A stretch of DNA of 47,039 nt, from positions 1 to 47,039 of the forward strand of contig MNYW01000083.1 in the NCBI GenBank assembly GCA_001873295.1. Direction: 5' to 3'. This stretch comes from Nitrospirae bacterium CG2_30_70_394. Its GTDB lineage: Bacteria; CG2-30-53-67; CG2-30-70-394. Below are positions 30,500 through 46,944 of this stretch, one piece after another. The notes below the pieces were generated by a model. That model had not been told where the DNA came from. It made no database searches and was given only the letters and a program-made list of their open reading frames with translations. A program made the translations under genes and the position numbers. Every line of letters begins with the position of its first letter. Position 1 is the stretch's first letter.

Positions 30500-30718
30500 C
30501 GACCGGTCGTGACCTCGGCGTCTGTGCGCGAGACCCGCCTTCCAGCCCCGCGCCTCGCCCGATTGCTGCGCCCGCGACGCCCACCCCTTTCTACCTTCAA
30601 TTTCTCCTGCGTTGAGTCGTCTGCCCCCCTTTCCGATTCGCGCCGATTCGCAGTGAATCGCGGCCCGCTCGACAAGCCATCTTCCCTCCCCCTTTCTACT
30701 TCCTACTTTCCTTTGCGC
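30500..30718 (-). repeat. Dispersed intergenic repeat, copy B
   Basis: Read on the minus strand it begins with a purine tract (GGAAAGTAGGAAGTAGAAAG), continues GGGAAGATGGCTTGTCGAGC and CTGCGAATCGGCGCGAATCG, then a second tract (GAAGGTAGAAAGGGG), GCAATCGGGCGAGGCGCGGG and GTCTCGCGCACAGACG. The same modules occur at 38.4, 42.4 and 46.5 kb. It is non-coding; frequent indels between copies argue against a protein. Confidence 0.75.
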
Positions 30719-30752: not shown

Positions 30753-30782
30753 GGGCCCGGGGGTCGATCGACCCCCGGGCCC
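30753..30782 (-). terminator. Perfect 30-bp palindrome terminating the RND operon
   Basis: Fifteen-base arms (GGGCCCGGGGGTCGA and its complement) lie 33 bp after the pump stop codon. On the minus strand they are followed by TTTGCTTT, as expected for an intrinsic terminator of the pump operon. Confidence 0.8.
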
Positions 30783-30815
30783 CGGGTGCTACGGCTTGGG
30801 TGGGTGAGTTGCGCC

Positions 30816-33800
30816 TTAGGCGCTCACCGGCCCCTCTTCGGGCGGGGTCTCGGGCGGCGGTGCGGCGGCCTGCTGTTCGCGTCGCAGCCGCGCCTTCTGC
30901 TTCGCCTCCTTGAAGGTCCGCTTCTTCTCCCGTACCTCCTGGTGCTGGAGGTGGTTGAAGAGGTAGATCGGGACCATCACCAGGGAGAGCAAAGTGGAGG
31001 CGCCGGTCCCCCAGATCAGGGAGGTGGCGAGGCCGTTGAAGATCGGGTCGAGGAGGATGACGAAGGCGCCGACGAAGACCGCCGCGGCGGTGAGGAAGAT
31101 CGGCATGGTCCGCAGGGCGCCGGCCTCGATGCAGGCGTCGCGCATCGACATCCCCTCCTCACGGCGCTCCATGGCGAACTGCACCACCAAAATCGAGTTG
31201 CGGACGATGATCCCGGCCAGGGCGATCATCCCCATCATCGAGGTGGCGGTGAACCAGGTTCCGGTGAGCCAGTGGCCGGGCATGATCCCCACCAGGGTGA
31301 AGGCGATCGGCGACATGATGACGCCGGGCACGGAGAAGGAGCGGAACCAGCCCACCAGCAGGACCCACATGACGAGTAGGGCAATGCCGAAGGCGCCACC
31401 CATGTCGCGGAAGGTCTCGACGGTGGTGTGCCACTCGCCGTCCCACTTCACCACCACATCCTTCTCCGTCTTCGGCTGGAGGAAGAGGTGCTGCTTGATC
31501 GGCCGCCCCGCTGGGGTGGTGATCTCCTGAATCGGACCCCACATGTTGATGAGGGCGTAGACCGGCGAGGCGTTGCGGCCGGCGACGTCGCCGGTGACGT
31601 AGATCACCCGTTGGAGGTTCTCGTGGTAGATCGACTTCTCCTCCACGGAGCGCTCCACCTTGACCAGCTCGGCGAGGGAGATCACCCGACCCGACGGCGT
31701 CGGCAGGCGGATCTCCTTCAGGGCCTCCACGGAGTTGCGCCGCGCCACCGGGAAGCGCAGGTGGATGGGGACCGGGGCGAGCTCGCCGCTGAGGCGCAGG
31801 TGGGAGATGTCCATCCCCGCCATCGCCATGCGCAGGGTCTTCACCACCATCTCTTTGGAGAGCCCCACCTGGTTCACCTTCTCGTCGTCAACGACGAGCG
31901 TGTCTTTTGCCTGGTCGTCCTCGTAGTACCAGTCCACGTCCACCACGTCCTGGGTGTGGTCGAAGACCTCGTGGACCTGCTTGGCCACCGCCACCTGGGA
32001 CTCACGGTCGCCGCCGTAGATTTGGCAGACGAGGGTGGAGAGGTTGGGCGGGCCGGGGGGCGGCTCGAGCACCTTGATCCGCGCCCCATACTTGTCGGCG
32101 ATCGCGTGCAGGGCTGGCCGGACACGGGTGGCGATGTCGTGGTTCTGCTCGGTGCGGAACCGCTTGTCGACGATGTTCACCTGGATTTCGGCGACGTTGG
32201 ACCCCTCGCGCATGAAATAGTGGCGTACCAGGCCGTTGAAGTTGAAGGGCGAGGCGGTGCCGGCATAGATCTGGTAGTCGGAGACCTCGTTTACCGTGCG
32301 CAGGTAGTCGCCGAGCTCCATGGCGACCCGCGTGGTGTCTTCGAGGGTGGTCCCCTCGGGGGTGTCGATGACGACGCTGAACTCGCTCTTGTTGTCATAC
32401 GGCAACAGCTTGACGAGCACCATCTTGGTCCCCACCAACCCCATTGCCGCCATCATCATCACCATCACCGTGAGATAGCAGATCCACTGTAAGCCGCGGT
32501 GGTCGAGGATCGCCCCCATGGTCCGCTGGTAGAAGTGGTAGTAGGCGGTCTGCTTGGCGTAGTCGGCGTGCGACTCCTCTACATCGGTGCGCCGCCGGGT
32601 GGTGATCGGTTCGGGCTCGTAGTGTTTGAGGAACTTGTTGGCGCACCACGGCGTCACCATCAGGGCAACTGCCAGGGACATGAGCATGGCGGCGGAGGCG
32701 TTCACCGGCATGGGGCGCATGTAGGGCCCCATGAGGCCGCCCACCACCGCCATCGGCATGAGGGTGACGATGACCGTGAAGGTGGCAAGGATCACCGGCG
32801 GCCGCACCTCGTTCACCGCGTAGATGATCGCCTGGATCGGCGGCAGCCTGCGCATAGAGAAGTGGCGGTGGATGTTCTCCACGTCGACGATCGGGTCATC
32901 TACCAAGATGCCGATCGACATGATCAGGGCGAACAGGGTCACCCGGTTCAGGGTGTAGCCGATGGACCAGCTCCAGAAGAGGGTGATCGACAGCACCACC
33001 GGCACTGCGATGAGCACCACCAGCGCGTCGCGCCAGCTCAGAAAGACGCCCACCAGGAGGATGACCGAGACGGTGGCGATCCCGAGGTGGAAGAGGAGCT
33101 CATCCGCCTTGTGGCCAGCGGTGAAGCCGTAGTTTCGGGTGAAGGTGTAGTGGACGTCCTCGGGGATGAGCTGGGAGCGGATCTGTGCCAGCTTCTGCTC
33201 CACCGCCGCGGCGGCGTTCACCGAATTCGTCCCCTTCTTCTTGGCGACCGTGATCGTCACCCCGGGGATGGTGTGGCCGTGTGCATCCGCGGGCCATTCG
33301 ATCGTCTTGCCCAGGGCCTCTTCCTCGGCCTGGTATTGGGGACCGACGCCGAACAGGACGTAGTTGTCGACCTCCCCTGGACCGTCCTCAATCTCGGCCA
33401 CGTCGCGCAGATAGACCGGCCTGCCCTGGAAGGTCCCCACCACCAGGTTGCCCACCTCGCGGGCGTTCTGCAGGAAGGTACCCGCGTCCACCAGCAACTC
33501 CTGGTCGTTCACCTGGAACTTGCCCGCCGGCATCGACCAGTTCGCCGCCTGAACCACCTGCGCGATCTGCGGCGGCGAGGTCATGTGGGCCGCCATCTTC
33601 TGGGAATCGAGGATGACGCGGAGGGTGCGCGGCCGGCCGCCGATGATGTCGACCTCCGCGGCGTCGGGGATCTGGGCGAGCTGGTCGGCGATCGGCTGGG
33701 CCATGCGCCGCAGGTCGTAGTCGCCGTAGTTTTCGCTGTACAGGGTGACCGCGACCTGTGGGACGTCGTTGATGTCCCGCAGCTTGATCATCACCTGCAC

Positions 33801-34232
33801 CATCGGGCTGCCCGGGGCGAAGCTGACTCCGCCGCCCGGCGCCTTGTCGATGTTGTTGAAGATCTTGTCGTAGAGCTGAACGAGGGAGCGCTGCTGGTCG
33901 GAGTTGACGTAGAAGCGCGCGGTAACCACACCATAGTTGGCGTGGCTCATGGAATAGACGTACTCCACCGGGAAGTCGTCGATTCCCCAAATCAGCCGTT
34001 CGAGCGGCTTGACGACCTGGGACTCCACCTCCTCGGCGGAGGCACCTGGTACCGCGACGATGATGTCCACCATCGGCACCACAATCTGCGGATCCTCCTC
34101 GCTCGGGGTCACGAGGACCGCGAAGAGGCCGAGGATCAGGGCGGTGCCGATGAATAGCGGCGTCAGCTTGCTGGTCGTGAAATAGCCGACCAGCTTGCCG
34201 AGGAAGGTCTCGTCGGTCGTGTAGTGGGCCAT
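30816..34232 (-). CDS. RND efflux pump inner-membrane transporter, AcrB/HAE-like
   Basis: A 1138-residue proton-driven transporter with 12 predicted membrane helices and two large periplasmic loops. The helix 4 relay is SIGILVDDPIVDVENI, with the paired Asp of the family. The helix 10 position that is Lys940 in AcrB appears as Arg in GIIVRNSILVVQF. Extra length (about 90 residues over AcrB) includes a lysine/arginine- and proline-rich C-terminal tail. The substrate cannot be read from the sequence; drugs, lipids and metals are all possible. It overlaps no neighbour but starts 3 bp after the adaptor stop. No TolC-type gene is adjacent. Confidence 0.9.
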   Translation of the reverse strand: MAHYTTDETFLGKLVGYFTTSKLTPLFIGTALILGLFAVLVTPSEEDPQIVVPMVDIIVAVPGASAEEVESQVVKPLERLIWGIDDFPVEYVYSMSHANYGVVTARFYVNSDQQRSLVQLYDKIFNNIDKAPGGGVSFAPGSPMVQVMIKLRDINDVPQVAVTLYSENYGDYDLRRMAQPIADQLAQIPDAAEVDIIGGRPRTLRVILDSQKMAAHMTSPPQIAQVVQAANWSMPAGKFQVNDQELLVDAGTFLQNAREVGNLVVGTFQGRPVYLRDVAEIEDGPGEVDNYVLFGVGPQYQAEEEALGKTIEWPADAHGHTIPGVTITVAKKKGTNSVNAAAAVEQKLAQIRSQLIPEDVHYTFTRNYGFTAGHKADELLFHLGIATVSVILLVGVFLSWRDALVVLIAVPVVLSITLFWSWSIGYTLNRVTLFALIMSIGILVDDPIVDVENIHRHFSMRRLPPIQAIIYAVNEVRPPVILATFTVIVTLMPMAVVGGLMGPYMRPMPVNASAAMLMSLAVALMVTPWCANKFLKHYEPEPITTRRRTDVEESHADYAKQTAYYHFYQRTMGAILDHRGLQWICYLTVMVMMMAAMGLVGTKMVLVKLLPYDNKSEFSVVIDTPEGTTLEDTTRVAMELGDYLRTVNEVSDYQIYAGTASPFNFNGLVRHYFMREGSNVAEIQVNIVDKRFRTEQNHDIATRVRPALHAIADKYGARIKVLEPPPGPPNLSTLVCQIYGGDRESQVAVAKQVHEVFDHTQDVVDVDWYYEDDQAKDTLVVDDEKVNQVGLSKEMVVKTLRMAMAGMDISHLRLSGELAPVPIHLRFPVARRNSVEALKEIRLPTPSGRVISLAELVKVERSVEEKSIYHENLQRVIYVTGDVAGRNASPVYALINMWGPIQEITTPAGRPIKQHLFLQPKTEKDVVVKWDGEWHTTVETFRDMGGAFGIALLVMWVLLVGWFRSFSVPGVIMSPIAFTLVGIMPGHWLTGTWFTATSMMGMIALAGIIVRNSILVVQFAMERREEGMSMRDACIEAGALRTMPIFLTAAAVFVGAFVILLDPIFNGLATSLIWGTGASTLLSLVMVPIYLFNHLQHQEVREKKRTFKEAKQKARLRREQQAAAPPPETPPEEGPVSA

Positions 34233-38297: not shown

Positions 38298-38336
38298 GGT
38301 AAAGTAGCTTGGGGTCAGGTCTTTACTTTATACCCC
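38298..38336. repeat. Possible REP/RAYT-associated sequence
   Basis: The minus strand reads GTATAAAGTAAAGACCTGAC and then CCC. This resembles a string often found beside REP-associated tyrosine transposase genes in Proteobacteria. TAAAGTA and TACTTTA form short inverted arms here. No transposase gene is present, so this would be an orphan copy; the match is from memory. Confidence 0.35.
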
Positions 38337-38385
38337 TGGTCCAACACCGGACTCTGATGCGCCACGTCACCCCAATCCGCTGACC

Positions 38386-38535
38386 CCTGCGAAGGGGCGC
38401 GAAGGGGGAGGGGGCAGACGCAGTAAAAGGTAGGAAGTAGGAGGGGGAAGGAGGGAGGCGAGGGGGGGCGCGGGCGAACGGCCGGGCATGGGTTGTCGCC
38501 GGGAAGGCAGTCTCGCGCACAGAGACGGAGACGCG
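38386..38535 (+). repeat. Dispersed intergenic repeat, copy D (partial)
   Basis: Begins CTGCGAAGGGGCGCGAAGGG, then GGGGGCAGACG, a purine tract (GGTAGGAAGTAGGAGGGGG) and GGAAGGCAGTCTCGCGCACA. The order follows the right half of copy B. The GATGGCTTGT module is missing. Confidence 0.6.
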
Positions 38536-38720
38536 CGCGGAGGGGGTGGCGCCGGCGGTGAAGCAACCGGAGAACGGTGCGCGCCGGCGCGAAGGGGCGC
38601 CGCGGGTCGGGGACTTTTCGAGTGCGAGCGTGGGTTGCCAGCGCCGTGGCGGGCGCGGCCGTGCCCAGTGGGGTGGGGTTTGCCACGGTGGGGCTACCAC
38701 GGCGCCGGCGCGGAGCAGCG

Positions 38721-42358: not shown

Positions 42359-42874
42359 GGGCGGGGCCGGGGTGGAGGTAGAAAGGGGGAGGGCAGAGGT
42401 GAGGGGGGGCGCGGACGCCGCGATCGGGAGGCGCGGGAAAGGGAAGATGGCTTGTAGAGCGGGCCCCGAACCACTGCGAATGGGCGCGAATCGGGGAGGG
42501 AAGGAGGCGAGGAACGCGCGGGAGGAGGTAGATAGAAAGAGGTGGGTGTCGCAAGCGAAGCAATCGGGCGAGGTGCGGGCCGGGAAGGTGCGCTCGCGCG
42601 GCGCCACCGCACCGGGGGGTGAAGCGCCGCCCCTTCCTACCTCCTACTACCTTCCTTTGCGTTGCGTTGTGTCCATCCCCCCTGGCTTCCGTCCTTCACC
42701 CCCCCCTCCCCCCTGTTGGTTACCTTCCCCTCCGCGCCTCTGCGCCTCTGCGCGAGCCCGTCTTTCCAGGCCCCACGGTGGTTGGCGATGCGGCTGGCGA
42801 CGCCGGCGCACGAATCGACGCTACACTGGCGAGCGGGCGGCGAGCGGAGAGGGCGCGGCTCGGGAGGAGAGGCG
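42359..42874. other. 516-bp gap before the V-ATPase genes
   Basis: Mostly occupied by dispersed repeat copy A and its inverted partial modules at 42631-42660 (pyrimidine tract) and 42741-42775 (CTCTGCGCGAGCCCG). The V-ATPase promoter should lie between about 42775 and 42875, but no good hexamers are seen. Confidence 0.55.
42374..42660 (+). repeat. Dispersed intergenic repeat, copy A
   Basis: Purine tract GGAGGTAGAAAGGGGGAGGG, then GGGAAGATGGCTTGTAGAGC at 42441, CTGCGAATGGGCGCGAATCG, a second tract GGAGGTAGATAGAAAG, GCAATCGGGCGAGGTGCGGG, and a closing pyrimidine tract (CCTTCCTACCTCCTACTACC) in inverted orientation to the first. Clearly homologous to copy B over most of its length, with indels. 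Confidence 0.75.
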
Positions 42875-46385: not shown

Positions 46386-46944
46386 GGGTTGGCCGCCGCT
46401 CCCCCGCGGGGCTGCGGCGGGCCAAGTAGGAGGTAGGAAAGGGGAGGAGGGAGGCGAGGGTGGGGTCGCGGGGGAACCGCCGCCTTGGTCGCGGCCTGAA
46501 AGGCGGGTGTCGCGCGGAGGGGCGGCGCGGGGGAGGGAAGATGGCTTGTCGAGCGGGCCGCAAACTGCGAACGGGCGCGAATCGTGGACGGGGAGGAGAC
46601 GAGGGCCGCGCTGGAGTTGGCGATCGGCTCCGCCCGGCGTGCACCTCGGCGCCCCCGTGGTCACGACCGGTCGCCCCGCTTTGGGTCTTGGTCTCTTCGT
46701 GTGACGCGGCCGTTTTGCCTTCGCGCGCCTCCCTGTTGGGCGGCTGCACGTTTTGCGGCTCCTCGTCACGGTCGCCAAAGTGCGACAGACTCCTGGAGGT
46801 CGGTCGCTTGGGTGATCGAGTGGGAAGGCCGGCGCTGACCCGCGGACGACGGGGTGGGGTCGAGAAGGAGGTCGTTGCAAGGCCACCTGACCCCACTCCA
46901 CCCCCATCGCCTCTGCTCCTTCCTACCTCCCTCCTCCCTCCCCC
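46386..46944. other. 559-bp gap between subunit K and the next V-ATPase gene
   Basis: Occupied by dispersed repeat copy C, further low-complexity sequence, and a closing pyrimidine tract at 46917-46944 that abuts the next ATG. I find no convincing gene in it. Confidence 0.55.
46425..46690 (+). repeat. Dispersed intergenic repeat, copy C (modules rearranged)
   Basis: Purine tract AGTAGGAGGTAGGAAAGGGG, then CTGAAAGGCGGGTGTCGCGC (matching the distal end of copies B and D), then GGGAAGATGGCTTGTCGAGC at 46535 and CTGCGAACGGGCGCGAATCG, ending with GTCACGACCGGTCGC shared with copy B. The module order differs from copies A and B. Confidence 0.7.

Follow-up and report, generated by a model that had tools for sequence, protein, structure and literature searches.

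Modular repeats dispersed in the gene gaps of a Nitrospirae genome are probably in part relics of elements that carry a GxxExxY gene between inverted ends

The window, that is, the whole 47,039-nucleotide contig MNYW01000083.1 of Nitrospirae bacterium CG2_30_70_394, carries short repeat modules in four gene gaps, at 30.5, 38.4, 42.4, and 46.5 kb (copies A, C, B, and D, respectively; Table 1). Each copy contains a subset of the modules. The earlier note, which was placed on copy B, had described such modules in all four gaps, three copies being forward and one reverse, and both statements are correct; the modules belong to a non-coding repeat family found throughout the genome. A copy with reordered modules and an inverted partial set were also described there: it is copy D that has a CGCAGAG-like module ahead of the GGAAGATGG module, and the clearest inverted set comes after copy B (42722-42779).

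Table 1. Repeat modules in the four gene gaps of the window
Feature	Copy	Position	Strand	Basis
GGAAGATGG and GCGAAT-unit module (M1)	A	30619..30685	-	iterated nhmmer, own-genome sample, E 5e-15; alignment
GCAATCGGGCGAGG...GTCTCGCGCACAGA module (M3/M4)	A	30513..30578	-	nhmmer, E 1e-12 as M4, 4e-8 as M3
M1 with GCGAAT units	B	42442..42508	+	nhmmer, E 6e-15
GCAATCGGGCGAGG module (M4)	B	42548..42611	+	nhmmer, E 1e-13
M5 (GGGGGGTGAAGCGCCGCCCCTTCCTAC...), also on other contigs	B	42606..42699	+	nhmmer, E 2e-22
Inverted CGCAGAG end (plus-strand CTCCGCGCCTCTGCGCCTCTGCGCGAG)	after B	42722..42779	-	local alignment; nhmmer
Partial GCGAA unit pair (CTGCGAAGGGGCGCGAAGGG)	C	38383..38410	+	2 mismatches
CGCAGAG-type end with GTCTCGCGCACAGAGACGGAG	C	38469..38549	+	nhmmer, E 3e-10
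Degenerate CGCAGAG-type module (M3), before M1	D	46465..46528	+	nhmmer, E 1e-8
M1 with GCGAAT units	D	46536..46600	+	nhmmer, E 6e-15
M7, found after M1 in several copies	D	46610..46677	+	nhmmer, E 2e-14

The word GGGAAGATGGCTTGTCGAGC occurs three times in the window (30667-30686, minus strand; 42441-42460, plus strand, one mismatch; 46535-46554, plus strand) where 0.01 occurrences are expected, and CTGCGAAnnGGCGCGAATCG four times (30634, minus strand; 42474 and 46565, plus strand; 38387, plus strand, two mismatches) against an expected 0.08. Two exact copies each were found of GCAATCGGGCGAGG and GTCTCGCGCACAGA, which are weaker, as about one chance match is expected for either when two mismatches are allowed. 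A separate feature at 30754-30786, the perfect palindrome GGGCCCGGGGGTCGATCGACCCCCGGGCCC, lies downstream of the gene at 30816-34232, is 100% conserved in the genome of a sister species of the same genus (G001), and is perhaps a terminator.

In the window's own genome (G000; an assembly of 2.65 Mb in 182 contigs), copy B gave 53 matches at E ≤ 1e-3, spread over many contigs. In a sample of which 75% was assigned to coding sequence by a coarse gene caller, about 90% of the copies lay outside genes. The description of the family as an abundant, dispersed, non-autonomous repeat is supported. The stretches analysed covered 417 kb of G000 and 299 kb of G001 and were picked for containing matches, so that densities in them are not genome averages. 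Iterated profiles in the own-genome sample yielded 27 matches at E < 0.05 for M1 (GGAAGATGG... plus GCGAAT units) and 39 for M3 (GTCTCGCGCAGAGACGCAGAGGCGCGGAGG), as well as the further modules M4-M7; full-length copies of M5 were located by nhmmer in three other stretches (L043, L049, and L050). At the orthologous gaps in G001 (that at 42.4 kb; L032, 300-700; L037, 8.2-8.95 kb), the repeats are absent or other palindromes stand in their place. Therefore, the turnover of copies must be fast. Some orthologous gaps in G001 (L095:4505-4600, L096, and L093) are filled by REP palindromes of the GTAGGAGCGGGTTGTACCCGCGA type.

Two of the modules consist of two to three near-identical units of 8-10 bp. 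The core of M1 is an array with a 10-bp period, CGCGAAT-nnn-CGCGAAT-nnn-CGCGAAT, and its aligned copies vary by the loss of exactly one 10-bp unit; the other unit module reads CGCAGAG-n-CGCAGAG-n-CGCGGAG. No match to the exact lineage module was found among 84,980 GTDB species. The bare GCGAAT trimer was found in 99 stretches from at least eight phyla, the taxa comprising Acidobacteriota, Planctomycetota, Verrucomicrobiota/Lentisphaerae, Nitrospirota, Armatimonadota, Ignavibacteria, Bacteroidota, and Pseudomonadota. An inverted partner lay on the inner side of 44 of 110 GCGAAT arrays, with a median spacer of 25 bp, compared to 6 of 110 on the outside. Two arrays directly adjoin the beginning of a reading frame for GxxExxY, where ATGAACGCGAATGAACGCGAA reads MNANERE. 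The corresponding family, PF13366, was present in 12 of 15 genomes with the repeat, which had been chosen by hand for taxonomic breadth, and in 3 of 14 control genomes; within the window's own phylum it was present in six of the eight genomes of the collection. A search of open-licence PMC texts for the modules as sequence strings returned nothing relevant.

In most of the genomes checked, GxxExxY genes were found to have inverted unit arrays close to their start and stop, the unit word differing between loci (CCGCAGATGAACGCAGATGAACGC at L247, CCGCCAAGACGCCAAGGACGCCAAG at L259 and L268, CACGGAATACACGGAAAGCACGGAA at L251, CTCGCGCGGAGACGCAGAGGCGCAGG at L249, and others). Over 36 such loci, the inverted flank-to-flank score had a median of 42, whereas flanks paired across loci and control intervals each gave 16. 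The score of 33 of the 36 loci exceeded the control 99% level; the low value of L285 is an artefact of misplaced coordinates, as its ends are plain in the sequence. A looser control with the open reading frames of the same loci, which include antisense frames sharing the flanks, gave 41 versus 17 (p ~1e-13), and Y1_Tnp loci scored 31.5. GxxExxY loci on plasmids of Sphingomonas, Bernardetia, Gemmatirosa, and Bacteroides also have inverted flanks, as does a short version in Treponema. Two other plasmid loci, one fusobacterial (L301) and one from Prevotella (L302), appear to have direct flanks that are not clearly inverted, perhaps a different type of end.

The bounded genes scored 138-147 bits against TIGR04256 (cut-off 35) and 143.5 bits against PF13366 (cut-off 22). 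An intact element carries this single gene, encoding a GxxExxY protein of about 125 residues. K84 and Y100 are invariant in it and D72, E82, and Q96 nearly so. The fold, predicted at high confidence (pLDDT 96.5), is that of a PD-(D/E)XK nuclease with D72, E82-x-K84, and Q96-xxx-Y100, and the closest structures are alkaline and lambda exonucleases, Cas4, and MGME1.

Insertion of gene and ends as a unit is supported at several places. In Sphingomonas, the gene and its repeats lie between fabD and fabG, and in Bacteroides between radA and the next gene; in relatives, the two neighbours are adjacent at either site, and neither the GxxExxY gene nor the repeats are present. In Gemmatirosa, the flank repeat of one gene recurs at at least 39 and at least 34 places on two plasmids (at least 73 in total). 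No target-site duplication was seen at the compared sites, where the flanks are strongly diverged, and no transposition event was seen among them. No GxxExxY gene was found in phages.

The connection to the window is closest for the CGCAGAG-type modules. In G001, the GxxExxY genes at L276 and L285 are bounded by CGCAGAG ends, CACCGCAGAGACGCAGAGGACGCAGAGG and CGCAGAGACGCAGAGGGGCGGAGACGCAGAG. When these were compared with the 47-kb window, the best match fell at 42728-42752, within the repeat at 42.4 kb, with a score of 35-37 compared to maxima of 27-30 in shuffled gaps. The end after copy B is also the window's best match to the ends of the GxxExxY gene at L249. Within the window, this is the only CGCAGAG end that clearly exceeds the shuffles. 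The GCGAAT copies of the window are decayed, and their link to GxxExxY genes therefore runs via the family consensus; this consensus and the loci L252, L250, L265, and L273, with no site in the same genus, suggest a tie of M1 to GxxExxY. The earlier note had held that the repeats match no known element. This is right only in part, since two of the modules correspond to inverted ends that bound GxxExxY genes within the genus and beyond it.

One orthologous site exists in two states. In G001 (C30), it has the structure TIR-GxxExxY-TIR (L276), whereas the syntenic site in G000 (C125) is gene-less and has the same inverted pair, CACCGCAGAGGCGCAGAGAACGCGGAGG and CTCCTCTGCGCCTCTGCGGTGA, around a spacer of a few bases, the flanks being 79-82% identical. 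Inverted ends are thus common to the dispersed modules and to a gene-bearing element, as is typical of MITEs (CGCAGAG ends of L276 and L285; C125 allele). For L285, no synteny with G000 was found. Only a single GxxExxY gene was found in the own genome; it is truncated at the end of a contig and starts in a different array, CACGAAGG, that is also repeated in the gene gaps of this genome. No significant GxxExxY coding remnant was detected in the window by tblastn.

We consider it probable that the modules are mosaics which include solo ends and gene-less, MITE-like inverted pairs derived from GxxExxY elements. In its intact form, such an element would comprise the gene with imperfect inverted repeats within tens of bp, each end being built of two to three tandem units with a period of 8-10 bp, composed of CRC and a 4-nt word that differs by subfamily (GAAT, AGAG, AGAT, CAAG, or GGAA). 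GxxExxY may bind the repeated units of both ends, and the units may be cut or resected as a hairpin or single-stranded DNA, whereupon host synthesis or repair would copy the unit elsewhere. The nuclease would recognise the units and drive their copying, probably by cutting or resecting the ends with the help of host repair, and would have a catalytic role in mobilisation. Internal deletion or loss of the gene would leave short palindromes, and further decay solo ends that accumulate in gene gaps like REPs and MITEs. In the window's own genome, an end of the GCGAAT type, joined to the lineage-specific arm GGAAGATGG..., was probably amplified, CGCAGAG-type ends are common as well, and the remaining modules may have hitchhiked. 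Points against this reading are that neither target-site duplications nor transposition events were seen, that the own GxxExxY gene has a different end, that three of the 15 repeat-bearing genomes lack PF13366, that the GCGAAT copies of the window are decayed, and that two plasmid loci have direct flanks. Most of the mosaic length also lies outside the account by GxxExxY ends, namely the left arm of M1 (GGAAGATGGTTTGTAGAG; AAGATGG...), GTAGGAA heptads, M4, M5, and M7. A wider claim, which might equally well prove right or wrong, is that GxxExxY genes and their periodic inverted ends form a large trans-phylum mobile class run by a RecB/Cas4-like PD-(D/E)XK nuclease and not by a known transposase, many short periodic intergenic repeats of Bacteria (CGCGAAT, CGCAGAG, CACGGAT, and CGCCAAG families) being its gene-less offspring.

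Alternatively, the GxxExxY genes could be passengers, or homing-type nucleases, that entered palindromic repeats already present and spread by other means. The gene-less pair at C125/C30 could indeed be the older state, its spacer being too short to show a gene remnant, and three of the 15 repeat-bearing genomes lack a GxxExxY gene. However, the matching of flanks is largely locus-specific across many unit words, so that each gene would need a palindrome of its own, and the absence of both gene and repeats in the Sphingomonas and Bacteroides relatives also speaks against pre-existing repeats; we regard this explanation as unlikely. A role of the repeats as structured RNAs or as terminators in 3' untranslated regions is far less probable still. 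The gene-less inverted pairs do fold into strong hairpins (-41.5 kcal/mol at C125), and there is some excess of convergent gaps, but the copies have no fixed orientation relative to genes (coarse gene caller) and are replaced by other sequence in orthologous gaps. The RNA family considered in the earlier note found no support either in Rfam (no match in the window at gathering score) or in an alignment of 18 M1 copies, which gave only three weak pairs and no compensatory change.

Mobilisation of REP-like repeats by Y1 (HUH) transposases, either RAYT or TIRYT, is equally hard to credit, even though the own genome has five Y1_Tnp genes, Y1_Tnp was present in all eight repeat-bearing genomes tested, and TIRYT ends lie beside several module copies (e.g., at 38310-38335 of the window). 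A RAYT or transposase with matching ends, proposed earlier as a check, did not turn up: none of the five Y1 genes has a copy next to it, and among 35 Y1 loci from nine genomes the GCGAAT dimer (CGCGAATnnnCGCGAAT) was never found within ~1.5 kb. A GT[AG]G foot was not apparent by eye in the module consensus. With no GCGAAT dimer near any of these 35 loci, the Y1 reading, RAYT or TIRYT, is largely refuted. TIRYT ends carry the motif GGGGWSAS and flank Y1 genes (PMC3733652). The Y1 genes of the own genome (L051-L055) are flanked by inverted GGGGTCAG ends that represent this motif; it flanks these genes and not the modules. TIRYT and module systems share the same gaps.

The proposed GxxExxY elements resemble REP/RAYT systems (REPtrons) and REPINs in that short intergenic repeats, often in inverted pairs, occur as dispersed gene-less copies and also bound a gene of their own. 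They differ in the enzyme, which is a PD-(D/E)XK nuclease (QxxxY, RecB/Cas4-like) instead of an HUH Y1 enzyme, and in the ends, which are tandem 8-10-bp units in which no GT[AG]G foot was seen by eye. TIRtrons (Di Nocera et al., 2013, PMC3733652) likewise have a gene within terminal inverted repeats, which occur as dispersed families too, but their motif and Y1 genes fit the five Y1 genes of the own genome and not the modules. Like MITEs, the gene-less copies would stem from an element with inverted ends by internal deletion; the differences are that the partner gene is not of a known transposase type and that no target duplication was seen. TIGR04256/PF13366, whose curated cut-offs the repeat-bounded genes far exceed, carries no annotation beyond a nuclease fold, and no open-licence PMC paper was found to link it or the name GxxExxY to repeats or mobility; three such papers mention the family, with titles and abstracts on subjects other than repeats.

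Dispersed bacterial repeats that had no explanation are hereby tied to a common protein family which is annotated but has no assigned function. The occurrence of GxxExxY genes between inverted repeats in many phyla suggests that such elements make up a large class of mobile DNA, apparently one not described before. Should the nuclease move the ends, the enzyme behind this mobility would be an unfamiliar one, and the system would be REP-RAYT-like in kind and spread across many phyla; the prediction is specific and open to testing in cultured strains such as those of Gemmatirosa, Bacteroides, or Sphingomonas. A separate repeat of 125-170 bp, unrelated to the modules, was also observed at L032:9638-9809 and L037:10065-10230, with about 20-25 weaker copies in G001.
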